Of a stretch of DNA of 27,792 bases, positions 1-24,383 are shown piece by piece. Source of the DNA: a virus. Each line of letters opens with the position of its first letter. Within the stretch, counting starts at the first letter, position 1. The notes under the pieces were generated by a model that was given only the letters and a program-made list of their open reading frames with translations, was not told the DNA's origin and did not search any database. Both the position numbers and the translations under genes were made by a program. The DNA lies in the IMG/VR virus record IMGVR_UViG_3300047274_000047, positions 1 to 27,792 of that record. The stretch is one strand, 5' to 3'.

Positions 1-104
1 GCGATAACTGCGCCATCTTTGGTTACATCGGTGGTCTTGCGTACTTCAATAGTTCCGTCAAGTTTGACGTTGAAGCCCGAAATGTAGATTACTTCTTCAA
101 TCAT
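1..104 (-). CDS. Small conserved phage protein, truncated by the window edge
   Basis: The first 34 codons of a gene whose 3' part lies outside the window. It starts MIEEVIYISGF and continues NVKLDGTIEVRKTTDVTKDG. The ATG at 104 follows an A-rich leader (AAACTAAACAAA) typical of Bacteroidota starts without a Shine-Dalgarno site. It lies 18 nt downstream of the fibre-like gene and is probably part of the same late operon. The short polar sequence resembles small hypothetical proteins near adsorption genes in Bacteroidota phages. No function can be assigned. Confidence 0.6.
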   Translation of the reverse strand, partial: MIEEVIYISGFNVKLDGTIEVRKTTDVTKDGAVI

Positions 105-122
105 TTTGTTTAGTTTTATTTT

Positions 123-1373
123 TTATACGAAGTAGGTGAATGATATCATTACCTCACTATTATTTGCAAAGTCACCATCTGATAAAGCACTCAATGCTCC
201 TGCATTTGATGTTTCAAGGAATAATATATTGGTCGTACCAATTTCTCCACGAAGTTGAGGAAAGTCAGCAAAAGTAACATTTGCTAAATTAGAAATTGAA
301 GCTGCGGAATAGTTAGAAGCACCTGCGCCTATGGTAAACGGCAATCCCGTAATAGTTGCGTTACCCGTAGAACTTCCTTTGTTTGTTAAAGCAAGATATC
401 CAACAACACTAACTTGACGTCCAATTTTAGTATATCTTCCCGTGTTGCTTGAGTAGGTAACACCCGTAGCCCCGTTATTAAACGCAATACCCATAGTCCA
501 AGTCCCCTCCTCGTAGTCATCAAGGGCGTTGGCTGCTGCGGTGTCCCCGTTGAAGGTTAGGCCGTCAGCCGTTACTCGCATACGCTCAACGGGGGCAGTT
601 GCCCCACCCGTTCCCGACCTTGTCGCAAAAACAAGGTTAGAAGTAGTAGCACCGCTTGGACTTGTAATAACGCCCGCAATAACCGCAGCGCAAGTGCTTT
701 CAGAATATCCAAAACCAATTTGAGCATATTGCCCCAATACCCCCGTGTTGCTAATCAATAAGCCTAATTCGCTCGTGGTTCCTAAATTGGTAGATAATTT
801 TCTAACATCTAAAGTACTTTGAGGCGTACTCGTGCCGATGCCTACGTTGCCTGCGGAGGTGATGCGCATCTTCTCCGAAAAACTTAATCCATTAGCACGA
901 TTCAAAAATGAAAGTGCAGTTGCGTAGTTGCCTAAAGTAGCGTTTTCTTTTACCGCTTGAATACAAGCTCCATCAACATATTGAGCAGTGTCATATTGAT
1001 AGCCAAGCATCATTCCTGCACCAACACTTGCGGCAGGTGAACTCGTGTCAAAGGTTCGGATTGTAGCACGAGCAGGTGAACTTTCTAAAGGCACACCATT
1101 GATTTGAATAGGTGCGTTAGGTGTGATTGTACCAACACCAACACGATTGTTCGTAGCATCTACAAATAATGTATTCGTATCTACCGTAAGGTTGCTTGAT
1201 ACTGCCAACGTACCCGTGATGCTCGCAGCACCCGTAGACAAAGCAAGAGCCGAATCATTACCTAAACCATCAGTCAAGGTCTTCAGCGACCCGCTTAACG
1301 GCCCGTTATCCGTAACCTTAATAAGGCTATCGTAAGTGTCCTGTGGGGTTGTCCCCGTTAATGTTGTTCCCAT
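123..1373 (-). CDS. Tail fibre / receptor-binding-like virion protein
   Basis: A 416-residue protein rich in Ser, Thr, Gly, Ala and Asn. It carries beta-repeat signatures common in fibre and adhesin-like phage proteins: NNRVGVGTITPNAPIQI near residue 75 and GNVGIGTSTPQSTLDVR near residue 175. Such VGIGT-P-LDV repeats mark the shaft of many Bacteroidota phage and bacterial surface proteins. The C-terminal half (from about residue 285, ANALDDYEEGTWT) looks like the separate beta-rich head often seen after these repeats and is the likely receptor-contacting part. The gene is among the last of the structural block, where adsorption genes usually lie. Fibre identity is inferred from composition, repeats and position; no catalytic motif was seen. 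Confidence 0.7.
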   Translation of the reverse strand: MGTTLTGTTPQDTYDSLIKVTDNGPLSGSLKTLTDGLGNDSALALSTGAASITGTLAVSSNLTVDTNTLFVDATNNRVGVGTITPNAPIQINGVPLESSPARATIRTFDTSSPAASVGAGMMLGYQYDTAQYVDGACIQAVKENATLGNYATALSFLNRANGLSFSEKMRITSAGNVGIGTSTPQSTLDVRKLSTNLGTTSELGLLISNTGVLGQYAQIGFGYSESTCAAVIAGVITSPSGATTSNLVFATRSGTGGATAPVERMRVTADGLTFNGDTAAANALDDYEEGTWTMGIAFNNGATGVTYSSNTGRYTKIGRQVSVVGYLALTNKGSSTGNATITGLPFTIGAGASNYSAASISNLANVTFADFPQLRGEIGTTNILFLETSNAGALSALSDGDFANNSEVMISFTYFV

Positions 1374-1375
1374 TT

Positions 1376-1585
1376 CTAATTATTCCAAGTTGTTGACCAA
1401 GTATTCCAAATTTCTTCTATCAACTGCCAAGCACCTTGCTCGTTGTTGCCGTATAGGTTAGTAGTAGGGTGACCATAAGACAATGGCTGAACCATACCCC
1501 AAGAGATATCGTTTGTAGCTGCTGCTTGACCCCAATAGATGTCATTGTTTGCTGCTCCTTGTCCCCAATCGCCTTGTATTCCCAT
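1376..1585 (-). CDS. Small Trp/Asn-repeat virion-associated protein
   Basis: A 69-residue protein built from imperfect aromatic repeats: GDWGQGAANNDIYWGQ, then AAATNDISWG, and a C-terminal NTWSTTWNN. Similar Trp/Asn-rich tracts occur in the large tail protein encoded at 9643..11772 (NWNTWNTAWN). Such repeats are frequent in structural proteins of Bacteroidota phages, so a small structural role next to the fibre is plausible. The gene lies 2 nt upstream of the fibre-like gene, which suggests translational coupling. Function is unknown. Confidence 0.6.
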   Translation of the reverse strand: MGIQGDWGQGAANNDIYWGQAAATNDISWGMVQPLSYGHPTTNLYGNNEQGAWQLIEEIWNTWSTTWNN

Positions 1586-1655
1586 TCTCTCCTAAATAAC
1601 TTTTTAGCTTGACAATGTTGCTCGGCTTCGGTTTGTAGGTGTCTTTCTTTGCCAT
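1542..1655 (-). CDS. Possible small basic protein (37 aa)
   Basis: ATG at 1655 lies 1 nt after the connector stop (1657..1659) and opens a 37-codon frame starting MAKKDTYKPKPSNIVKLKSY. It is basic, with many Lys and Pro. The start position fits the tight gene packing and it fills the only gap between the connector and the Trp-repeat gene. Against it, the last 44 nt overlap the clearly patterned Trp-repeat gene. It may be a real small gene or chance; no family is recognised. Confidence 0.4.
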   Translation of the reverse strand: MAKKDTYKPKPSNIVKLKSYLGENGNTRRLGTRSSKQ

Positions 1656-1656
1656 A

Positions 1657-2157
1657 CTATAATACCCACGATGAAAAGTTAGCATCCGTGTCAGGGAACA
1701 CATCAGCGTTGTTGTTCAAGTAGTATTCAGGGAAGGTTGCCTGATTGTAGCTCATATAGGTGATGAAGCGGTCAGTATAGTACTGCGCAATGTTGCGCTC
1801 CTTCTCAACCAAGAAGTCAACCTCGTTCTTCTCCACGCTCGTTGAGTTCTCGCTTGTGTGCTTGTATACACCGCCATTGGCAATCGTGTACGCAGCAAAA
1901 GGCAAGTACTCCACCATTGCATAGTGAATCAGCATCGGCTGAAGGTAGTCGTTGACCAACGCCAAGTAGGGATTCGCAAGCGTTCCTGCGATGATGTCAT
2001 CGCTAATCTTGTCGTAGAGCTTCGTGCCTGTGTAGTTTTGGATGTGGATTTCCTGCGCAATCTTGATGAACTGAATGAACTTGTCCGTGTCCACGTTACC
2101 ACCAAGTGCGGTCTGCCGCACCAAATCCTCTCGCTTAATCCAAAGTGCCGTTGCCAT
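1657..2157 (-). CDS. Head-tail connector-like protein
   Basis: A 166-residue, mostly helical protein starting MATALWIKREDLVRQTALGG. The pattern of an N-terminal helix pair followed by FIQFIKIAQEIHIQNYTGTKLYDKI and a long central helix resembles the small connector (gp6/DUF6712-like) proteins that join the portal to the tail in Bacteroidota phages. It sits 4 nt downstream of the portal gene, the usual place for such an adaptor. Assignment rests on length, helical pattern and position. Confidence 0.6.
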   Translation of the reverse strand: MATALWIKREDLVRQTALGGNVDTDKFIQFIKIAQEIHIQNYTGTKLYDKISDDIIAGTLANPYLALVNDYLQPMLIHYAMVEYLPFAAYTIANGGVYKHTSENSTSVEKNEVDFLVEKERNIAQYYTDRFITYMSYNQATFPEYYLNNNADVFPDTDANFSSWVL

Positions 2158-2161
2158 TTTT

Positions 2162-4228
2162 CTATTTGTATTTTAATGAACCACGTGAAGGCGTATCAAT
2201 AGGGCGTTTTTGAGCCTCATCCCAAGCGGTTGGATTCAACTTGCTTGATGGTACTCCTGCCTTGATTGCTGCTTCCGTAGATACAACCTTGTCATTCTCT
2301 AATCCTTCGTTCGGTAGGAACTTACCCCCATCACGTTTGCGGAAGTAAACCAAACGCCTCCAAGCGTGGTGGCAGAACGCTCCGCCCTTCCACTTCCAAA
2401 TAGAGTAGACGCTCTTGCCCGCAGGGGCGAACTGACCATTGACTCCGCTAAAGCTCATCATATCAATATCCTCCTTGCGGAATACGACTCCTCCGTTTGC
2501 TGCTGCTACCATCTCACGGCAGAACTCACGGCTATTAGCCGACAGGTTGCGAGTGTAGGCATAGCGTATCTTGTAGAGTCCACTATCAGCCTTGCTCTTT
2601 TCATCGGAATTGCTGAAGTCCTCAACTGCGAAGTTGTACTGCGTGGCGAGGTGGGTGTCCTCATTGTCGGGGTCGCTGACTACCTCATCAGAGATGAGTT
2701 CCCATTCGTTTAAGTCAACGACCTCACCCTTTCCCCGCAGAGCCTCAATCCATTTATGCTCATCTTCGTGGGTAAATTCAGGCACATCGCTCTTGAACTT
2801 GTGCGACTTCATCTGCGTGATGACGTTTGATGCGTTGCCTGCAAATAAAGCACGTGCAACCGCAGGGTCAAACTGAAGCATCTGCACAAGGAATGTGATG
2901 GCTTGGTCTTGCGTGAGAACGCCCTCCTGTACTGCTCGCATAATATCCAACGAGCTTGCAATCTGCGCTCCGTTGTACGATGCCTCTTTCTGAATAAGCT
3001 CCTCTTGAACCTCCGAAGGAACGCCACCGACAGGCTGCGCTTCGCTGACCTTGATGCCCGTTTCTTCTTCTACCACTTCGGCATCCTCTACAACGAGGTT
3101 GCTGAACTCAAGCGGCTGAAGGGTCTTGAAGTAGACGTTTAGGCTAAGGTCGTTGTACGAGAGAATCTTGTTGATGCCATCCAAGATGGTTTCTTGCATT
3201 GGCTTGATGACAATGTTCTCAAATAGGATAGAAGCCGTTTTAAGCTCCTCTGCGTTGTTGCCTAACCCCGAATTGTCCTTGATGCCCATCAGCATCGGAG
3301 AGGTGATGCGGTGAGCAACCATCAGTTTCTGCATTGCCTCGTTGGACAGGAACTGATATTGGTTGTGGGCATCCGATAGTTGTACGGTGTCAAGTGTTGC
3401 TTTTGATTCAGCATTGTCGTTAAACGCCAAGATGAACTTACCTGCGTTGTTCGTGCCGCTAAACTTGTTTGCAATCTGCATCTCAATCTGCCTGCGCTCC
3501 TCCTCGCTCGGTACTCCGTTGTTGAAGTTAATGAGCATTGAAGGGTTGAGGCCGTTCTGAATGTTGTTGATGTGGAAGTTTGCAATCTCCTCCTCAAGCT
3601 CTGCATACGGAAGTCCTCCCTGATAATCCACAGGTGAGTAGTAGTAGAATCCTGCTCGGTATGGTTTAACGTACAACACCTCAAGACCCTCTTGGCTCGT
3701 TCCAAACGCAGGGATGCGGATAGGCGTTTCTTTGCGTTGCGCTACCGCTTCCCAATCCTTTGCGTAGTAGTAGCCCTCAACCTCTCCATCTTCGTTGCAC
3801 TTCTCGGCACGGAGGCTCTCAATGGGTAGATGCTCTACCTCTACAATCGTGTTGTGGTCTTTGGAGTAGATGACTTGGATGGCGCATTGACCCATCATCT
3901 TGAAGTCTGCCACAAGCTTACGAACGCAGTCCTTGTTAAACAAGCCTTTCATCGCTGCGTACTCACTCGGCTTGCGAGCAGAATCCGTAGCATCCAATCC
4001 CTCACCATAGATGAAGTCCACCACGCCATTGATTAGGGCGTTGTTGGTTGGTGAGCCGTTGTAGCGGTCAATCAGGTATTGGAAGTAGTTGTTGTCATCA
4101 CCATATTGCACCCAATCCTTGCCCTGTACCTCGCTAATGTTAGGGGTGGTATAGGAACTCAAATTGACTACGTGGACTTTAGATGATGATGTAGTCGTTG
4201 TCGTAGCTTGTTTCTTCGGTGTAGACAT
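2162..4228 (-). CDS. Portal protein with C-terminal Cys/His head-morphogenesis-like domain
   Basis: A 688-residue protein. Residues from about 35 to 390 have the look of a phage portal: DWVQYGDDNNYFQYLIDRYNGS near the N-terminus, GVVDFIYGEGL, MMGQCAIQVIYSKD, the stem/clip region around NINNIQNGLNPSMLINF, and NEAMQKLMVAHRITSPMLMG. The portal forms the dodecameric DNA gate at the capsid vertex. After an acidic linker, residues 549-635 form a separate domain with FCREM, GVVFRKEDIDMMS, YSIWKWKGGAFCHHAWRR, containing Cys and His residues that could bind metal. Its position after the portal recalls the SPP1 gp7/Mu F minor head proteins, which are usually separate genes. The low-complexity N-terminus (TTTTTSSS) overlaps the upstream gene by 50 nt. 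Portal identity is fairly secure; the role of the added domain is inference. Confidence 0.8.
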   Translation of the reverse strand: MSTPKKQATTTTTSSSKVHVVNLSSYTTPNISEVQGKDWVQYGDDNNYFQYLIDRYNGSPTNNALINGVVDFIYGEGLDATDSARKPSEYAAMKGLFNKDCVRKLVADFKMMGQCAIQVIYSKDHNTIVEVEHLPIESLRAEKCNEDGEVEGYYYAKDWEAVAQRKETPIRIPAFGTSQEGLEVLYVKPYRAGFYYYSPVDYQGGLPYAELEEEIANFHINNIQNGLNPSMLINFNNGVPSEEERRQIEMQIANKFSGTNNAGKFILAFNDNAESKATLDTVQLSDAHNQYQFLSNEAMQKLMVAHRITSPMLMGIKDNSGLGNNAEELKTASILFENIVIKPMQETILDGINKILSYNDLSLNVYFKTLQPLEFSNLVVEDAEVVEEETGIKVSEAQPVGGVPSEVQEELIQKEASYNGAQIASSLDIMRAVQEGVLTQDQAITFLVQMLQFDPAVARALFAGNASNVITQMKSHKFKSDVPEFTHEDEHKWIEALRGKGEVVDLNEWELISDEVVSDPDNEDTHLATQYNFAVEDFSNSDEKSKADSGLYKIRYAYTRNLSANSREFCREMVAAANGGVVFRKEDIDMMSFSGVNGQFAPAGKSVYSIWKWKGGAFCHHAWRRLVYFRKRDGGKFLPNEGLENDKVVSTEAAIKAGVPSSKLNPTAWDEAQKRPIDTPSRGSLKYK

Positions 4229-4623: not shown

Positions 4624-5172
4624 TTAAGAATTGTTACCCGTAACAATCGTGTCCGTAGCATTCGCAAGTCCTGCAAACGGATTCGCTACCGTAGCACCTG
4701 CGATGAAGTTAGCAGGAAGTTGCTCCTGTGCCTCCATTACAAGAGTGTAACCTGAAAGGTCACCCATAGCAGCACCCGTTACGATAGTACCGCCCGTTAC
4801 CTCTGCTCCGTAGTTCTTACCCATCAAGAAGGCGTTGCCATTGTAGTCCTGTACGATAACGTAAGGGCGACCATAGGCCAAGAGCTTCAGCTCCTTATTG
4901 TCCTCTTTGGTGAGTTTAGTCAAAGTCAGGTTCAACGTCTGCGTGAAGAAGGTAGTACCATTCTCACGGCTTGAGTTGAAGGTCTGCTCAAAAGATGAGT
5001 TTCCTTTTACCAAGTATTGATATGCAGAGAATGTACCGCTAATGTCGGTCACCTCATCGTTGGTGAGGGTGATAGTACCCAAGTCACCAAAATCTACAAA
5101 GTAAACGGCATAAATGCCACCTACTACATCTTTACACGGGACTGCACGCCCTTTTGTTAAATCGCAAGCCAT
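4624..5172 (-). CDS. Tail tube / major tail-like structural protein
   Basis: A 182-residue, beta-strand-rich protein starting MACDLTKGRAVPCKDVVGGI, followed by YAVYFVDFGDLGTITLTNDEVTDI. Alternating hydrophobic strands, a Ser/Asn/Thr-rich sequence and small size suit a tail tube subunit. Residues 45-75 (SAYQYLVKGNSSFEQTFNSS) fit the strand-loop-strand pattern of tube folds. It is flanked on both sides by strong terminators (5187..5222 and 4548..4574), as expected of a protein needed in many copies. It lies between capsid and portal genes, so a capsid decoration protein is the main alternative. Confidence 0.5.
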   Translation of the reverse strand: MACDLTKGRAVPCKDVVGGIYAVYFVDFGDLGTITLTNDEVTDISGTFSAYQYLVKGNSSFEQTFNSSRENGTTFFTQTLNLTLTKLTKEDNKELKLLAYGRPYVIVQDYNGNAFLMGKNYGAEVTGGTIVTGAAMGDLSGYTLVMEAQEQLPANFIAGATVANPFAGLANATDTIVTGNNS

Positions 5173-5186
5173 TGTTATTGTTTAGA

Positions 5187-5222
5187 ATTAAAAAAGGGGG
5201 CGGGGCAGAACCCACACCCCCT
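5187..5222 (-). terminator. Rho-independent terminator after the major capsid gene
   Basis: On the minus strand a G/C-rich hairpin (AGGGGG paired with CCCCCT, plus inner pairs around a TTCT-containing loop) is followed by six T residues and AATT. It lies in the 74-nt gap between the capsid gene and the tube-like gene, and probably limits readthrough from the highly expressed capsid gene. Confidence 0.8.
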
Positions 5223-5246
5223 CGTGGTTTAAACTATGTACTCGGA

Positions 5247-6173
5247 TTAAGAGTAGAGAACTACGTCAGTACCGATGCCGTATTGTACACCTGCGAAGAA
5301 GCGCAAGATAACACGGATGTTGTCAGAGCCGTCAAGGTCAGCCATATCAAGGACACGAACCTCGTTGCGCTCGTTCAGCAGACCCGTACCGAAGTACAGG
5401 TTAGAGCTTTGAGCAGCAACCATCTTGTTTGAAGGAAGGCCGTTAACCATAGCTACACGGATTCCGTCAAAGTACAAGGGTTGGTCACCATACCACATCG
5501 TGCCTTTGTTGTCAAGACCATTAGCGCCAAGACCTGAAGCACCGAAGCCACCAAGCGCACGAACGTAAGCCTTAGCAACGTTTTGCGGAACGTAGATGGT
5601 CAAGTCTTCCTTGCCGTAAAGGGCAGCAGGGATAGCGTCAACAACCTTACCAAGCTCGGTGATAACGTTAGAAGCAGTTACGGTCGTAGCCGTTACGTCA
5701 ACAACGTCAGCATCAGCAGTCATCAAAGAAAGGAAGCCTGAGAACTCACCTGCTGAAGCAGCGTTACCATTCCAAATGTTCTGCTCAATCTTTTGGGCAG
5801 TCTTGGCAGCAACGTGAGCAATCAAGAAGTCAGCAAACGAAGCAGGGATGCTGTCGTAGGCAGAGAAGCCCATCTGACCGCCAATCCAAGAATCGTAGTA
5901 GTCTTTCTTGCAGAGCTGAAGGTTAACTTGGAACGGCTCAACCTCAAGAACACGGTCGGTCAGGGTCAGCGTAGACGTAGCGGTAAAGTCGCAAGTTGCG
6001 TCTTTAACGATGTCGTCAGTACCTACCTTCTGAAGGGTGGTCTTGAAGTTTACGTTTGGGAGGATTTCAACAAGCCCTTTGTCAAGGGTGTCGGCAGACA
6101 ACAAAGCGGCAGAGATGTACTTGCTCGCAAATTGACCTGCATAGTTGGTAGTGATTGAAGTGGTCGTAGCCAT
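5247..6173 (-). CDS. Major capsid protein (HK97-fold type)
   Basis: A 308-residue protein starting MATTTSITTNYAGQFASKYI. The order of segments fits HK97-type capsid proteins of Bacteroidota phages: an early arm (LLSADTLDKGLVEILPNVNFKT), a strand region (DRVLEVEPFQVNLQLCKKDYYDSW), a long helix (IAHVAAKTAQKIEQNIWNG), the P-domain (LTIYVPQNVAKAYVRALGG) and a C-terminal strand set (VQYGIGTDVVLYS). It is preceded by a scaffold-like gene and a protease gene and followed by a terminator, which is the usual arrangement. There is no large N-terminal delta domain, so the separate gene at 6186..6779 probably supplies the scaffold. Confidence 0.88.
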   Translation of the reverse strand: MATTTSITTNYAGQFASKYISAALLSADTLDKGLVEILPNVNFKTTLQKVGTDDIVKDATCDFTATSTLTLTDRVLEVEPFQVNLQLCKKDYYDSWIGGQMGFSAYDSIPASFADFLIAHVAAKTAQKIEQNIWNGNAASAGEFSGFLSLMTADADVVDVTATTVTASNVITELGKVVDAIPAALYGKEDLTIYVPQNVAKAYVRALGGFGASGLGANGLDNKGTMWYGDQPLYFDGIRVAMVNGLPSNKMVAAQSSNLYFGTGLLNERNEVRVLDMADLDGSDNIRVILRFFAGVQYGIGTDVVLYS

Positions 6174-15913: not shown

Positions 15914-16238
15914 GCACCTCTATTTGGAACATCTTGCCTGATGCTACCTCTACCTCTTGGCGTTCTATGTACCCACGCTTCTTGCCCTTTGTTTTGAGAA
16001 AGAAGATGGTGGCGGTTGAGTTTCCGTCTTTGATTTGCTTGTGGAGTTGGCTTTCTGCGAAGTCAAGGGCAACGTCTGATAGTCCATCAACTGCTGCTTT
16101 GTATTCTGCGTCCTCCTGCATCCAAAGGTAGTGAGTGGTACGTCCTATGCCTACGGCCTTGCAAGCGGCTGTAACAACGCCTAATGACTTCTCAAGGGCA
16201 TCAAGCATCGCTCTTTTATGTTGTTCAGTTTTGTCCAT
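15891..16238 (-). CDS. terS: Terminase small subunit
   Basis: A 115-residue protein directly upstream of TerL and overlapping it. The N-terminal region contains a helix-turn-helix of the type GVVTAACKAVGIGRTTHYLW, followed by FAESQLHKQIKDGNSTATIF then FLKTKGKKRGY, a recurring arrangement in phage terminase small subunits with a homeodomain-like fold. It would recognise the packaging site and load TerL. The C-terminus (KMFQIEVLGEDSDQ) is acidic and could contact the large subunit. It overlaps the methyltransferase gene by 14 nt. Confidence 0.85.
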   Translation of the reverse strand: MDKTEQHKRAMLDALEKSLGVVTAACKAVGIGRTTHYLWMQEDAEYKAAVDGLSDVALDFAESQLHKQIKDGNSTATIFFLKTKGKKRGYIERQEVEVASGKMFQIEVLGEDSDQ

Positions 16239-17367
16239 ACGGCTTGCCGTTTATTTTGATGTCAAGTGAGGGGTCAAGTTTCTGCATTCGGTCAATGATA
16301 ACCTGACAATACTTCGGGTCAAGTTCCATACCATAGCACTTGCGGTTGAGTTGGTGTGCTGCTACCATCGTAGAGCCGCTACCGAGAAAGCCATCAAATA
16401 ATAAATCACCTTTAACGTGGTCTTGAATTACTTCAGATAGCATCTTGATTGGTTTTTGAGTTGGGTGAACTCGCTTTTCTTTTTCTCCTGCTCTAATCAT
16501 TCCGTTCCAAAGTTGGTCGTAAATTCTTATCGGGGTATGAAAGCTGCACCAAGCCATTTCCCCATCAGCAAAAGTATTTCTAATATCAGTACCTGCTCTT
16601 TTGTTCCATATTAACCAACCATCGCTAAATGGCAAGAAGTCGGTAAAGTAATTACCACCCCAAATAATAAACCTATCCATACCAAGAGCAACGCAGGTAT
16701 CATAGAACTCTCTTGCCGTATCGGTTGTATCATCTGCGATAACCTCTGAATACTTACCCTTTTTTGCAACTCCAAAGTCAGCACCTACCATCTCTGACTT
16801 TACAACCTTAATGCCATAAGGTGGGTCGGTGAATACCATATCAGCCTTATGTCCATCCATAAGCCTTGCGACTGCATCGCTATCGGTAGAGTCCCCACAT
16901 AGCAGTCGGTGTTGACCTATCTCTATCAGGTCACCTAATACGATGTCCGTTTGTATTTCGGATGGTGCTTCGTAGTCATCCTCTTCGGCTTCAAGCACAG
17001 GGGTATTGTCAAACGGAAGCTCAAGCCCCCAATCCTCTAACGCCTCTACGTCCCATTGGTTAGCGAGCAAGTCCCAATCCCACTCTCCGAAGCCTACGTT
17101 GTCTTTGATTATGAATTCCGCCTGTTGCTGCTCGGTTAGGTTGTCCGCTACGATGATAGGCACTTCTTTAAGTCCTGCTGCGATGCAAGCCTTCAAGCGC
17201 ATATTACCGCCAAGCACAACCATATTGCTATCCACTACGATTGGGCGTAGCTCAAGCATTTCAGGGAACTCTTGGATGGACTTCGTTAGCTTCTTGAACT
17301 TGTCGTCCTTGATTATGCGTGGGTTGGTGGGGTTAGGAATAACCTGCGAGATAGGTACTCGTTTCAT
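16225..17367 (-). CDS. ParB-domain / N6-adenine DNA methyltransferase fusion
   Basis: A 380-residue two-domain protein. Residues 1-115 form a ParB/sulfiredoxin-like domain (ISQVIPNPTNPRIIKDD, RPIVVDSNMVVLGGNMRLKA). Residues 140-365 form a DNA amino-methyltransferase with the catalytic motif FTDPPYG (181-185), the AdoMet-binding motif FDGFLGSGST (about 324-333) and the late HPTQKPI (301-307). The DPPY motif and motif order fit an N6-adenine enzyme. Phage fusions of this kind modify the phage's own DNA, often against host restriction. Target sequence cannot be read from the protein. It lies between an HNH endonuclease and TerS, possibly coupling DNA modification to packaging timing. Confidence 0.88.
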   Translation of the reverse strand: MKRVPISQVIPNPTNPRIIKDDKFKKLTKSIQEFPEMLELRPIVVDSNMVVLGGNMRLKACIAAGLKEVPIIVADNLTEQQQAEFIIKDNVGFGEWDWDLLANQWDVEALEDWGLELPFDNTPVLEAEEDDYEAPSEIQTDIVLGDLIEIGQHRLLCGDSTDSDAVARLMDGHKADMVFTDPPYGIKVVKSEMVGADFGVAKKGKYSEVIADDTTDTAREFYDTCVALGMDRFIIWGGNYFTDFLPFSDGWLIWNKRAGTDIRNTFADGEMAWCSFHTPIRIYDQLWNGMIRAGEKEKRVHPTQKPIKMLSEVIQDHVKGDLLFDGFLGSGSTMVAAHQLNRKCYGMELDPKYCQVIIDRMQKLDPSLDIKINGKPYGQN

Positions 17368-19986: not shown

Positions 19987-20006
19987 GGGGTCGTATCCGA
20001 CTCCTT
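19985..20006 (-). terminator. Hairpin after the exonuclease gene, possible weak terminator
   Basis: On the minus strand AAGGAGTCG pairs with CGACCCCTT around a GATA loop (nine positions, one A-C mismatch), followed only by TTT and AAAA. The stem begins inside the exonuclease stop codon. The short T tract makes it a weak terminator at best; it could also be an RNA-processing or stability element. Confidence 0.35.
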
Positions 20007-20775
20007 ATAGTTCTCCGAAGATTGTGTACGAGTCCAAGTCCTCACCCAAGATGAAGAACTGCTTGTAGAGTTGGATGGCCTCAAGCGTTTTTCTTTCGCC
20101 CTCTGCTACAAACTCAGGAGTGATGGAGTATATGCCTACGTCCAAGCTGCTCTTGTCAATAGCGATGAAGTAGAACTTGTCAATAGGTATTCCGAATAGT
20201 CGGGTGTAGATGAACGCTTGAACGTCATAACCATATTTTCGGGCGGCATAGGGCCACGCACGAAGGTCATTTGTCGTTTTAAGGTCAGCCAAGAAGCCGT
20301 CAGCAATGATGTCTGCCTTTGCTCTGAATGGCATCCCTTCTATCATTCCAATCGCAGGTTGCTCAAATTCGCAGCCTTGAATCATTGACAAGAAGTATTC
20401 GTTGCGTAGTAGGGCATCAGCGATGCGTTGAGCCTCGTCAAACTCCTTACGTGTGCAGATGTTGCGTTGGCCTTTTGCTTCTTGCCACGCCTTTGCGTTC
20501 TTGCTTTGCACCTCAATCACGTTGTACTCCTCCACACGATGCGGCTCAAGAGCCATCAGGTGAACGAGCCTACCTACCGAGAAGGCATCTGAATCCTCAC
20601 TGCCGTACTTGGTGACGTAGTGGTAGGTCTTGGGTGAGGTTAATAATAATTTACAAGCTGAAGATGACAAGGCATTCTTTGAAAGGTTGCCGTAGTAGAA
20701 GTCATCATCGTGCATACGGCTCTTTATGGTTTCTAAATCCCAAGTGCTGCCATCAAGTAGTTCTATGATTTTCAT
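20005..20775 (-). CDS. Exonuclease VIII / Cas4-like PD-(D/E)XK nuclease
   Basis: From the ATG at 20775 the protein has 256 residues. It shows the signature of RecE/exonuclease VIII C-terminal nucleases (PDDEXK, DUF3799-like): a conserved His in VGRLVHLMALEP (His72), GMPFRAKADIIADGFLADLKTT with the catalytic Asp155 and D-x-K (164-166), and the QxxxY motif VQAFIY (186-190). Such enzymes resect double-stranded DNA ends for recombination, usually with a RecT-type annealing protein, which was not found in this window. An upstream in-frame extension to 20853 would overlap the methyltransferase gene and lacks the family's usual opening. The chosen start overlaps its stop by 4 nt (ATGA) and carries the ACCAATCA leader. 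Confidence 0.82.
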   Translation of the reverse strand: MKIIELLDGSTWDLETIKSRMHDDDFYYGNLSKNALSSSACKLLLTSPKTYHYVTKYGSEDSDAFSVGRLVHLMALEPHRVEEYNVIEVQSKNAKAWQEAKGQRNICTRKEFDEAQRIADALLRNEYFLSMIQGCEFEQPAIGMIEGMPFRAKADIIADGFLADLKTTNDLRAWPYAARKYGYDVQAFIYTRLFGIPIDKFYFIAIDKSSLDVGIYSITPEFVAEGERKTLEAIQLYKQFFILGEDLDSYTIFGEL

Positions 20776-22052
20776 TGTTGATTGGTTTTGAATAAAGGTA
20801 AACAATTTTTTGCAACTGCCGCAACCACATCTACAGTTACTGCGTTGCCGCATTGCTTGTAGCGTTGGGTGTTGCTCATTGGCTTCACTACTCCATCGTA
20901 GTTGCCAAAGGCGGTATGGTTATCAGGGAATCCCTGTAAGCGTTCGCATTCAATAGGTGTGAGCCTTCTGATGCGGTAGCCATCAAACATCCGTAGAGAG
21001 TTGTGATGTGGCTCGGTAAGGGTTGGCGATTCGCTTCTTGCTACACGATTGTACAGGTCAAGAGCTTGCGGTTCTCCTTCTACGAATTCACTGTTCTCTA
21101 TTGTTTCGTTTAGAGCTTTGCTTGAATAGTTTGTTTTTAGCAATGGTTGACCACTACCATCTTCTCTTGCACGAGCTGCAAGCGTTGGGCAATTCCCATC
21201 CTTTCTCGGCCTCCATCCTTCATCACTACGATAGTCACCTATCTCGTGTTTGATAATCAAATCACTCTTGCCTGCATTTAAAGCAGGTGCGTGACCATCA
21301 GCATCGTAAACTCGGTCTTGCTGATATGGTTGCTTGCCGCCTGAATCATTCCGAGTTCCAATTTGCTTTACTTGAACCCTCATTGGTGATTTGTAATCGC
21401 CTGAAGTCAGGGTGCGACCTATACCATCGGAGTCATATACTCGTCTTGATTGCACATCGTTTTCGCAGCTTGCCACAACATTTATTCCGTTTAAAGAAGT
21501 TTGCTCATTGCTTTCTCCGATAGGAAGAACTCCTCGCCAACCTCGCTTGGGGGTTGTAGAATATCCGACAAGGTATATCCGCTCTCTATTTTGGGGTAGA
21601 AACCAACTTGTATTAAGCAGTTGCCATTCAAGTCTATAACCCCCAATGTTGGTAAAGGCTTGGATAATTGCCCAAAAGTCTGCGCCATCATTTGAGGAGA
21701 ACGTTCCTTTAACATTTTCCCACACAAATACACTTGGTCGGCATTCGCTAATAAGACGGATTGCTTGGAGGATAAGAGAACTTCTTTGTCCTTCCATCCC
21801 AAGTCGTTTTCCTGCCAATGAGAAATCTTGGCAAGGACTTCCAAAAGTGATGAGGTCAATTCGGGGAAGGTCTGCTCCCCGAACATTTGTAACTGATCCG
21901 ACATAAGTAGAGGTTGGGAATTGATGTTTGTAAACTGCGATAGCGTGTTGGTCTATCTCCGAGAAGTAGGATGTGACTTCGTATCCTGCTCGCTCAAAGC
22001 CAAGATGGAATCCACCGATTCCGCTAAACAGGTCAAGCTGATTAATCTTCAT
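20772..22052 (-). CDS. C5-cytosine DNA methyltransferase
   Basis: From the ATG at 22052 the protein has 426 residues. Motif I is LDLFSGIGGFHLGFE (7-20). Motif IV, FGSPCQDFSLAGKR, holds the catalytic Cys74. Motif VI is WENVKG (112-114 for ENV). Motif VIII is QNRERIYLVGY (154-164). The closing motifs IX-X are RRLTPIECERLQGFPDNHT and QCGNAVTVDVV (about 362-410). The target recognition part (200-350) has repeated RVYD-S/A-DG units followed by TL or AL (RVYDSDGIGRTL, RVYDADGHAPAL), plus RKDGNCPTL. The enzyme transfers a methyl group from AdoMet to C5 of cytosine in a specific target. It may protect phage DNA from host restriction. An in-frame extension upstream of MKINQL does not resemble the family, so the ATG 22052 start is preferred. 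Confidence 0.93.
   Translation of the reverse strand: MKINQLDLFSGIGGFHLGFERAGYEVTSYFSEIDQHAIAVYKHQFPTSTYVGSVTNVRGADLPRIDLITFGSPCQDFSLAGKRLGMEGQRSSLILQAIRLISECRPSVFVWENVKGTFSSNDGADFWAIIQAFTNIGGYRLEWQLLNTSWFLPQNRERIYLVGYSTTPKRGWRGVLPIGESNEQTSLNGINVVASCENDVQSRRVYDSDGIGRTLTSGDYKSPMRVQVKQIGTRNDSGGKQPYQQDRVYDADGHAPALNAGKSDLIIKHEIGDYRSDEGWRPRKDGNCPTLAARAREDGSGQPLLKTNYSSKALNETIENSEFVEGEPQALDLYNRVARSESPTLTEPHHNSLRMFDGYRIRRLTPIECERLQGFPDNHTAFGNYDGVVKPMSNTQRYKQCGNAVTVDVVAAVAKNCLPLFKTNQQ
20778..20789 (-). promoter_or_regulatory. Leader element copy, exonuclease gene
   Basis: Minus-strand AAAACCAATCAA, 2 nt before ATG 20775. It lies inside the last codons of the methyltransferase gene (FKTNQQ), so coding constraint and the leader share the same bases. 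Confidence 0.5.
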
Positions 22053-22218
22053 AACGCTGCAACCAAAATTCTTCTTCGGTCTTGGCACTATCGTACTGCA
22101 CCTTGCCCGTGAAGTAGGCTGATTGTATGTGCATCTTTTCAATGTGAAGGTAGGATTCCTTTGTGGCATCGCTGAACTCGGGATGGTTCTCAAAGAACAC
22201 GGTGAATGGTGTTTTCAT
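22042..22218 (-). CDS. Small protein of unknown function (58 aa)
   Basis: A 58-residue protein starting MKTPFTVFFENHPEFSDATK and ending FWLQRYED. It is hydrophilic with several aromatic residues and has no membrane segment. Starting at ATG 22218 puts it 1 nt after the upstream stop (22220..22222); an alternative ATG at 22230 would overlap that stop. Its end overlaps the methyltransferase start by 11 nt, typical of this compact operon. No family is recognised. Confidence 0.6.
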   Translation of the reverse strand: MKTPFTVFFENHPEFSDATKESYLHIEKMHIQSAYFTGKVQYDSAKTEEEFWLQRYED

Positions 22219-22738: not shown

Positions 22739-22763
22739 CAAAAAAGAGGGCTATTTGCCCTCT
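22739..22763 (-). terminator. Strong rho-independent terminator ending the early operon
   Basis: On the minus strand a perfect 7-bp stem (AGAGGGC / GCCCTCT) with loop AAATA is followed by TTTTTTG. The 5' arm is formed by the last codons of the 45-residue gene, and its stop codon TAG lies in the loop/stem junction. It separates the replication block from the modification block. Confidence 0.88.
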
Positions 22764-22888
22764 CTCCATTGTGTGTAGCAAACTGCTACCGCTTGGTCTT
22801 TGTCAGTGTACTCGCTTCCGATAGCCTCCAAGCAGCGTTGGATGTATTCGGATTGCTTCTCGCCTGCGTTAGGTTTTGGAATTGGCAT
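22751..22888 (-). CDS. Small prohead-protease-associated-type domain protein (45 aa)
   Basis: From ATG 22888 the product starts MPIPKPNAGEKQSEYIQRCL and continues EAIGSEYTDKDQAVAVCYTQW. This IPKPN...F/YI-RC...EYxDxxQAxAxCYxxW pattern is a short domain often attached to phage head or portal proteins; here it stands alone among early genes. The ATG at 22888 matches the usual family opening (MPIPKP), whereas an in-frame extension to 22933 does not. It overlaps the endonuclease gene by 20 nt, and its 3' end forms the terminator stem. Role unknown. Confidence 0.7.
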   Translation of the reverse strand: MPIPKPNAGEKQSEYIQRCLEAIGSEYTDKDQAVAVCYTQWREGK

Positions 22889-23510
22889 AGTGTAGAAAGG
22901 TATTGATTTGATTGAATAGTTGCTCCCTGTCATCTATGCCCTCGGTGCCGTAGTAGACATAGACATAGGGTGCGTATTTTTCCTTGTACTGCTCGTTCTT
23001 TTGGCGGTGCTGCTCCTTTGCCCTAAGTTGGTATGCGCTGCTCATCGCCTTATACGATAGCGGCTTAATCTGAAGGCCAAGCATCAGCGTATTGTTGAAG
23101 TACATCTCCGCATCAATGCAATAGTCGTGGTCTACCTCAAAAGATGTCTTCTTAAAGTACGCATCAGGGAAGGCATAGTTCAGTTCCTCTATCGTAGCGA
23201 GTTCGTGGGCAAAGCCATTCCACGTTTGACCTATTACACGGAAGTAGATGTAGTGCTTGATTGTTGCTTCATCAAGGTTAGGCAGTCGCTTTTGCAGCTC
23301 TGCGTAAACATTGCGAAGGCAATCAAAGCCCTGCGTGTCCTTGTAGTATTGCTCCCACCCATCTTGAGTTGGCAGCGTGGTCGTTTCGTAATAGTCAGAT
23401 ATTAGACGAACACACTCACCAACGTAAGCCTTGCCAAAGAACGTATTTATCTTGGCGTTCTTATTTAGCTCCCGATACGTTTCGTTGGGAATGTTGTTTT
23501 CGTAAAACAT
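22869..23510 (-). CDS. MjaI-like PD-(D/E)XK restriction endonuclease
   Basis: From ATG 23510 the protein has 213 residues. The region TWNGFAHELATIEELN (97-111), then DHDYCIDAEMYFNNTLMLGL and QIKPLSYK (to about 154), has the layout of a PD-(D/E)XK nuclease: Glu103, Asp133, and Gln147-x-Lys149. The order of T-x-x-G, ID and a strand ending in IKP-x-Y is similar to what I recall of MjaI, a type II enzyme that cuts CTAG. The opening MFYENNIPNETYRELNKNAK carries no other domain. The gene lies among replication genes, and the window seems to contain no CTAG site. It may destroy host DNA while sparing phage DNA. Family membership is moderate; specificity is inferred. The start uses TGATG overlap with the upstream stop; TTG at 23513 is another possible start. 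Confidence 0.6.
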   Translation of the reverse strand: MFYENNIPNETYRELNKNAKINTFFGKAYVGECVRLISDYYETTTLPTQDGWEQYYKDTQGFDCLRNVYAELQKRLPNLDEATIKHYIYFRVIGQTWNGFAHELATIEELNYAFPDAYFKKTSFEVDHDYCIDAEMYFNNTLMLGLQIKPLSYKAMSSAYQLRAKEQHRQKNEQYKEKYAPYVYVYYGTEGIDDREQLFNQINTFLHYANSKT

Positions 23511-23917
23511 CAATAGGCGTTGTAAAGTGCCTCAAGCTCTTGCAACCTTCCACGCATACAACTGCCGCACGAAGTTGGCTGCACGTTATCCCTAAATACT
23601 CGGTTGTAGATTTTATTCAGTTCGGTCTGCTCAAACGCAGTTACCACGTTACGGCCTTTCATCTTGCCGATGAACTCATACTCGGTTTGCGTCAAGCATT
23701 CAGGCTTGCGGTAGCGGAAGATTTTGTTGAGCTTCTCCTTACGGGCATCGCATCCGCAGTCAATTCCTGTGGCTTCGCTGAACCAATCTACGGCAGCCTT
23801 GATGCCTGTGGCGGTGGTTATGGCCTCAATGGTGTCGCCAAGACCTTCACTCCTCTTTGGCTTCCTTCCACGCTTGGTAGGTTCCGTTGCAGTCGGTTTG
23901 GATTCGTTCTCTTGCAT
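23510..23917 (-). CDS. Basic Cys-rich protein, conserved in Bacteroidota phages
   Basis: A 135-residue protein. The N-terminus is basic with an AT-hook-like TKRGRKPKRSEG (residues 14-25), followed by GLGDTIEAITTATGIKAAVD then WFSEATGIDCGCDARKEKLN, and a C-terminal CGSCMRGRLQEL. This GLGDTIE...DCGCDARKEKLN pattern is familiar from small Bacteroidota phage proteins. The Cys pairs (CGC and CGSC) may bind zinc and the basic motif may contact DNA. Its first 71 nt overlap the 3' end of the sigma-like gene, an unusually long overlap here. Function is unknown. Confidence 0.6.
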   Translation of the reverse strand: MQENESKPTATEPTKRGRKPKRSEGLGDTIEAITTATGIKAAVDWFSEATGIDCGCDARKEKLNKIFRYRKPECLTQTEYEFIGKMKGRNVVTAFEQTELNKIYNRVFRDNVQPTSCGSCMRGRLQELEALYNAY

Positions 23918-24383
23918 TTTTTAGGGTATTAAAGATTGAACGTGCTGAAATTTTTGTTTTGTCTGCGAGCGTTCTGATGCTCATATCGGTGTTGTGGTAC
24001 AGGTCAAATATCTTGCGGTCATACCAATGCCAATCGGATGCCTGCTCCCATATCTCATCATAGAGAGCAACCATCTGCACTTCGGCTTCTTCGTTTGCCT
24101 CCTCAAAGATTAGCTCATCTTCTAATTGGCTTACGTCTACAAACTCAATGCGGCTCTTTGCTTTCATTAGGGTAGCGTACATATTGCGCAGCGTAACGTA
24201 GACAAAGAAGGTGTTGACCTCCTTTTCGTTGTACATTATTTTTTCGGGTTCTTCAACATACTTATATAGGCGAACGTACATCTCTTGGACGATATCGTTG
24301 GCAAGGTCTTGGTCTGCGCCAAAACTCTTAACCATCCGAATCCAATCAGTATGTCGCTCTGCGAGTATGTTTAGGAGTTCCAC
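23847..24383 (-). CDS. Sigma-70-family-like transcription factor (ECF type)
   Basis: A 178-residue protein with the two-part layout of small sigma factors. Residues 20-45 (FGADQDLANDIVQEMYVRLY) resemble region 2, including the D-x-V-Q-E core that binds core polymerase, with NTFFVYVTLRNMYATLMKAK as the following helix. Residues about 120-165 (YDRKIFDLYHNTDMSIRTLA, KISARSIFNTLKNARERI) resemble the region 4 helix-turn-helix that contacts the -35 element. It could direct host RNA polymerase to phage late promoters. The linker between the regions is acidic. Whether it is an active sigma or an anti/co-activator was not determined. The length is normal for the ECF group. Confidence 0.7.
   Translation of the reverse strand: MELLNILAERHTDWIRMVKSFGADQDLANDIVQEMYVRLYKYVEEPEKIMYNEKEVNTFFVYVTLRNMYATLMKAKSRIEFVDVSQLEDELIFEEANEEAEVQMVALYDEIWEQASDWHWYDRKIFDLYHNTDMSIRTLADKTKISARSIFNTLKNARERIQTDCNGTYQAWKEAKEE

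Follow-up and report, generated by a model that had tools for sequence, protein, structure and literature searches.

An Exchangeable Slot for Predicted Restriction Nucleases in Uncultured Phages, and the Words Missing from Their Genomes

Introduction

PacI has been described as a solitary restriction enzyme in a bacterial genome that is without its sites (PMC3488263). Among viruses, the restriction systems of chloroviruses and marseilleviruses were proposed to serve host DNA breakdown or the exclusion of competing viruses (PMC7253447), and an intron homing endonuclease of phage phiPA3 was described as a means of interference competition between phages (PMC12908238). Within the open-access library searched, we found no account of phage restriction enzymes that are exchangeable, lack a methylase, and have had their sites erased from the genome.

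The DNA analyzed here is a 27.8-kb record of an uncultured phage without end repeats (IMG/VR record IMGVR_UViG_3300047274_000047; its full length of 27,792 nucleotides is referred to as the window). Among the phage records closest to its terminase, which shares about 40% identity with them, are many from Flavobacterium. An initial annotation, made from the letters of the window, had singled out one gene as encoding an MjaI-like endonuclease in a genome that lacks CTAG, and below we compare this gene, its neighbors and the words missing around it with relatives and with unrelated phages.

The MjaI-Like Gene and Its Predicted Fold

The gene lies on the minus strand at 22869..23510, with its ATG at 23510 and its stop ending at 22869, and encodes 213 amino acids, or 214 if counted from an in-frame TTG at 23513. 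Its proposed membership in the MjaI family is borne out by the RE_MjaI profile (PF09568), which aligns to residues 28–162 at 29.9 bits, above the curated cut-off of 22.7 (E 5.8e-7), and which, as a control, also matches in the genome from which MjaI comes, that of Methanocaldococcus jannaschii; PADLOC agrees, with an assignment to REase_II (E 2.4e-9). Relatives of this protein, hereafter family A, are encoded by 47 IMG/VR contigs, and dN/dS values of 0.05–0.13 between the window gene and its relatives indicate that the protein is under selection.

The PD-(D/E)XK layout read earlier from the letters also finds support in structure prediction. The AlphaFold model of the window protein (pLDDT 87, pTM 0.82) has an alpha/beta core with predicted strands at residues 135–139 and 142–151, and a putative catalytic core, D134-x13-Q148-I-K150 (23064..23114, minus strand; 214-aa numbering), has D134 and QxK150 on adjoining strands. 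Five residues (D128, D134, E136, Q148, and K150) are invariant among 12 aligned relatives, down to 54% identity. The best Foldseek match for the model is BstEII with DNA, which is weak (E 0.011), while a second aligner returned the archaeal Holliday-junction resolvase Hjc (Z 8.5) and the DNA-bound restriction enzyme BsaWI (Z 7.9), both middling scores by the aligner's own note. Taken together, the model and the invariant residues suggest a PD-(D/E)XK nuclease core in which Q replaces the D or E that stands at this position in most enzymes of this type.

An Exchangeable Slot Between Two Small Genes

The MjaI-like gene is flanked on the same strand by two small genes, g135 upstream (135 amino acids; 23510..23917), with which it has a one-base overlap, and g60 downstream (60 amino acids; 22751..22933), which overlaps its end. 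Upstream of g135 is a gene for a sigma-70-like protein (23847..24383, minus strand), with weak matches to Sigma70_r2 and to a sigma-factor PHROG, that is syntenic in relatives. A second nuclease-like gene, encoding a DUF3799 PD-(D/E)XK-like protein (20005–20853; E 7e-27), is conserved near the slot.

Contigs gathered via g135 numbered 159 after de-duplication, and 157 of them were classed by the occupant of the position next to g135 into five mutually unrelated families: A (RE_MjaI; 37 contigs), B (50), C (20), D (22), and E (28). A g135 homolog precedes the slot gene in these 157 contigs, and g60 lies downstream of the slot in most mapped relatives with families A, B, C or D. Gene-less close relatives of the window phage (terminase 84–98% identity) retain g135 as well as g60 and have a different protein, about 150–190 amino acids long, between them. 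The two conserved small genes enclose an exchangeable slot, in which the MjaI-like gene is one of several alternatives. Farther away, Nonlabens phages with a distant g135-like gene have a 96-amino-acid protein and the terminase as the next genes, and no slot gene.

For families B, C, and D no Pfam family scored above cut-off, and no restriction enzyme was matched by families B–E in sequence searches of PHROGs, PADLOC, and PDB. Judged by sequence motif, these four families appear to be PD-(D/E)XK-like, each keeping a D...(D/E)-x-K signature with invariant key residues: D46/D59-V-K61 in B, D35/E48-V-K50 in C, D47/E64-V-K66 in D, and D35/E46-L-K48 in E. Families A, C, and D had no match in public phage records, and scans of genome contigs for a bacterial or prophage home returned no relatives of families A and B.

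The slot gene might be half of an ordinary restriction-modification system with a phage methyltransferase as its partner, and the window does encode two candidates, a C5-cytosine DNA methyltransferase (20772..22193, minus strand; PF00145, 6.7e-65) and a ParB-like N-terminal domain fused to an N6/N4 methyltransferase domain (16225–17367), which adjoins the small terminase gene. Against this, the C5 methyltransferase is not an obligate partner of the slot gene, homologs of the two methylases were not found in the 19-kb locus of the family A carrier L042, and, as described below, no sites remain to be methylated. The immediate neighbors of the slot gene, g135 and g60, are not methylases either, so that a cognate methylase encoded with the nuclease, the mark of a Type II restriction-modification system, is not seen at the slot in these mostly incomplete contigs. 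We regard a partnership of this kind as very improbable; the earlier suggestion that a protecting methylase would not be needed is in line with the absent sites and with the L042 locus.

Missing Words in the Window and in Slot-Bearing Contigs

As the initial annotation had reported, the window contains no CTAG. About 45 sites would be expected from shuffled sequences (both-strand shuffle mean 89) and 70 by a maximal-order Markov estimate, and 100 of 100 shuffles contain more CTAG than the real sequence. Its caution that other palindromes are missing too was well founded (CCGG 0, CGCG 0, TCGA 0, GATC 1, CATG 2). The discriminating word, which it had overlooked, is the non-palindromic CCAG/CTGG, with 0 occurrences vs. 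about 145 expected. The record from 1 to 27792 is free of the predicted targets of its own slot gene (CTAG, CCAG, and CTGG), and those of the alternative slot genes (CCGG, CGCG, GATC, and CATG) are nearly gone from it as well.

Two further absences in the window concern words with which no slot family pairs. TCGA would be expected about 80 times, and a sixth slot family matching it was not found among the 159 contigs; either another nuclease family or restriction by the host could account for its loss. Several 6-bp palindromes, among them CAATTG (0 observed, 17.5 expected), TACGTA (0 of 12.5), and GGTACC (0 of 12), are missing too, which is the expected outcome of avoiding host restriction enzymes.

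Across the 157 de-duplicated contigs, which are metagenomic and mostly incomplete, each family lacks a characteristic word (counts given as observed/expected). Family A carriers have almost no CTAG (2/1170) and CCAG/CTGG (10/2189), family B carriers almost no CCGG (5/1059), family C carriers almost no GATC (2/642), family D carriers almost no CGCG (15/522), and family E carriers no CATG (0/1345) and almost no CTAG (3/719). When each family is compared with the others, the top-ranked of the 136 tetramers is always its own word, and the control words CAAG and CGAG stay near 1.0 of expectation. In relatives with another slot gene, CCAG/CTGG stands at 67% of expected; counted across every locus, 38 of 40 family A contigs are devoid of CCAG vs. 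0 of 169 contigs of other families, and among slot-bearing phages the erasure of CCAG/CTGG occurs only with the A gene. The same holds for distant A homologs of 48–51% identity (L128–L130), in which none of the 38–46 expected CCAG and none of the 21–29 expected CTAG are present. In an AT-rich clade with family C, GATC is erased (0/251) and CTAG (285/378) and CCAG (291/326) are near normal. A few contigs carry two slot nucleases in tandem (L213, L279, L281, and L295; D+C or B+C), and both matching words are missing each time.

Exceptions to the rule tend to be confined to one tract. All CCGG and CGCG sites of L271 lie inside the first 3,009 bp (1–3009) of its 15,021 bp, and the exceptional sites of L002 and L011 are restricted to 5156–5906 and 3691–3914, respectively; these tracts may be assembly joins or recent imports. 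Another contig, L206, carries family C and yet has CCAG at 2/86, suggesting that A was replaced there recently. For the depletion of TCGA and GGCC, no matching gene was found.

Controls for Relatedness and the Inferred Target

Each A carrier was paired with its nearest relative without A, and the slot was masked. CCAG/CTGG was lower in the A carrier in 36 of 36 pairs, and this argues that the target is broader than that of MjaI. The initial annotation had named equal CTAG loss in close relatives without the gene as a finding that would speak against its reading, and for CTAG taken alone this is largely what emerged: in the two largest clades, CTAG stands at 0.08–0.10 of expectation in relatives without the gene (a roughly tenfold depletion), and in 35 pairs CTAG was lower in the A carrier in 20, higher in 1, and tied in 14. 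CTAG alone was accordingly rejected as a signature, being non-discriminating. It does belong among the probable targets, as had been supposed, but the proposed target was too narrow, and we infer that family A recognizes CTAG plus CCAG/CTGG and not CCGG. The wider pattern CYRG, which includes CCGG, was tried and rejected, as the carriers L042, L008, L037, and L006 keep CCGG scattered along the contig; on one consistent reading, CCGG is spared because at least one half-site must be CT.

The contrast also holds when contigs are grouped by clade and family (18 clades, cut at an identity threshold and not fully independent): the word matching a group's own family is erased in 39 of 40 groups, compared with 38 of 122 for words that belong to other families. 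CCAG is erased in 5 of 5 groups with the matching gene vs. 0 of 23 others (p 1e-5), followed by CTAG (p 0.001), GATC (p 0.003), CATG (p 0.04), CCGG (p 0.07), and CGCG (p 0.08). Depletion of CTAG, CATG, CCGG, CGCG, and GATC also extends to many genomes in which the matching gene is absent, and the within-clade contrast for palindromes is weak because non-carriers often lack these words too, giving many zero ties.

Short PD-(D/E)XK-type enzymes that act at words of 4–5 bp include the mismatch-repair nickases Vsr and MutH, and very-short-patch repair lowers CTAG. The slot proteins might be nickases of this kind, with the words lost through biased repair rather than through selection against cleavage. 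However, biased repair should raise the product word, whereas CTAG and its product CCAG are erased together; the words are at zero over hundreds of expected sites rather than merely lowered, and the profile matched by the window protein is that of a restriction-enzyme family. We consider repair bias a very unlikely source of the pattern. A free-standing homing endonuclease was considered and rejected as well, the association being with genome-wide loss of a 4-bp word and not with a long rare site near the insertion.

Unrelated Phages Reached Through the Protein

Genomes reached only via the protein were examined for a word fixed in advance. The 636-kb phage LR756504.1 encodes a 32%-identical B homolog and has no CCGG in five 50-kb slices (0/76 over 250 kb), where the next-lowest tetramer stands at about 0.31–0.32 of expectation. 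Among 35 de-duplicated contigs with D homologs of 29–68% identity, CGCG is absent (0/1028); many of these contigs lack other palindromes too, and CGCG is the sole one missing from all 35. Two 39-kb ct2KA10 genomes (L315 and L320) with an E homolog have no CATG (0/134 and 0/129) and normal CTAG. In L213, where the D and C genes form a tandem pair, erasure is limited to CGCG and GATC; the lowest of the remaining tetramers stands at 0.65. The erasure is gene-specific, in these unrelated phages as well as in the slot-bearing contigs.

Several of these genomes lack further words. In the ct2KA10 genomes AGCT, CATG, GATC, GGCC, and CCGG are all exactly zero, and of these five only CATG is explained by the E homolog. 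Among the distant D homologs L368–L395, AGCT, ACGT, GGCC, TCGA or TATA are often fully missing too, and neighboring genes there could encode further cutters. The unrelated spring-water phage MW202828.1 (L319) has CCAG/CTGG at 2/187 in the 40.9 kb from 20000 to 60850, a stretch in which a gene of families A–E was not detectable, and is also without GATC and CCGG; it may carry other nucleases, or may have been exposed to host enzymes with such targets.

Lytic phages often show site avoidance (PMC6286503), and several palindromes are depleted here whatever the slot gene, with TCGA and GGCC lacking a matching gene. The missing words might then reflect avoidance of host restriction-modification systems, and the slot gene would be incidental. 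Such a reading does not account for the difference between own and foreign words across the clade-by-family groups, nor for a gene-to-word rule that recurs in the huge phage, in marine phages, in ct2KA10, and in distant D carriers of very different base composition. The tandem genes of L213 predict exactly the two erased words, and CCAG/CTGG erasure keeps to the A gene among slot-bearing phages. Host avoidance as the whole explanation is very unlikely in our judgment.

Proposed Mechanism and Role

For a gene-specific, genome-wide zero, the simplest cause would be that the protein cuts the word and that the phage has no other protection. We propose that the family A protein is an MjaI-family restriction endonuclease with sequence specificity, which the phage uses without a cognate methylase, that it most likely cuts CTAG and CCAG/CTGG, and that the phage would be immune through selection that removed every target site from its own genome. 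In relatives, the slot would be held by one of the unrelated PD-(D/E)XK-like proteins B, C, D or E, sometimes by two in tandem, each genome being without the tetramer of its own occupant (CCGG for B, GATC for C, CGCG for D, and CATG plus CTAG for E). That the window protein is a methylase-free, site-erased restriction nuclease appears very probable to us; this judgment takes cleavage as what we infer from the word counts and does not extend to the role, which, like the timing of cleavage during infection, can be addressed here only by inference.

As to the role, the exclusion of co-infecting phages and of other site-bearing DNA ranks first, at about an even chance. Exclusion and host DNA breakdown may both apply, and the presence of at least five families in an exchangeable slot fits the exclusion of competing phages no less well than the destruction of host DNA. 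The slot is polymorphic among close relatives, which counts for exclusion. Further, the median observed/expected ratio for a word in non-carriers is 0.096 where the matching family occurs in the clade vs. 0.544 where it was not seen (p 0.002), a contrast that is suggestive only. In a clade whose slot occupants are all B or D, CCGG and CGCG are erased in carriers and non-carriers alike, L271 set aside, and CTAG, GATC, CATG, and CCAG are near normal. Against exclusion, non-carriers still have about half of the expected CCAG, and in many clades a word is missing though the matching family was not seen there; a history of replacement could by itself leave such traces of word loss in non-carriers.

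Alternatively, the nuclease might serve to destroy or shut off the host chromosome, in the former case as a source of nucleotides, as the initial annotation had suggested; rival phages would then be irrelevant. A 4-bp cutter would hit a bacterial chromosome at thousands of places and the phage at none, and chlorovirus enzymes have been credited with such a role (PMC7253447). However, host breakdown alone leaves unexplained why at least five families are exchanged in one slot, and also the lower ratio in non-carriers, suggestive as that contrast is. We regard host breakdown as the whole function as plausible but with the odds against it. A fuller version of the exclusion reading, to which we give slightly less than an even chance, is a polymorphic 'restriction without modification', in which unrelated 4-bp cutters swap through one slot and mainly hit co-infecting phages, while populations purge the words of the cutters in circulation, such that the missing words record the weapons that a lineage has carried or met.

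If true, phage restriction enzymes can be stand-alone weapons for which self-immunity resides in the whole genome and not in a methylase, and the words that a genome lacks can reveal the specificity of an uncharacterized nuclease that it encodes. Probable targets could then be assigned to four families that the libraries leave unnamed, and part of the palindrome avoidance of phages, which is usually credited to bacterial restriction, would gain both an explanation and a test.

Comparison with Known Systems

The window protein resembles MjaI in its match to the RE_MjaI profile, in its predicted PD-(D/E)XK-type core, and in having CTAG among its likely targets. Unlike MjaI, it is phage-borne and has no adjacent methylase, its target would also include CCAG/CTGG, and protection would come from the loss of sites rather than from methylation. 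PacI recognizes a rare 8-bp word and is bacterial, whereas here the words are 4 bp long, dozens to hundreds of them are expected in a phage genome and are erased, and the gene is exchanged in one slot. The likeness to PacI lies in a restriction enzyme that, as described for that system, is tolerated without a methylase through a site-free genome (PMC3488263). With the chlorovirus and marseillevirus systems the present families share being virus-encoded and, as predicted, sequence-specific cutters; however, the systems described there are complete with a methylase (PMC7253447), whereas here none appears to be needed. The phiPA3 homing endonuclease offers a parallel of another kind, a phage nuclease harming a co-infecting relative that is without the nuclease allele, but homing enzymes have one long, locus-specific site, whereas the slot families are associated with the genome-wide loss of 4-bp words.
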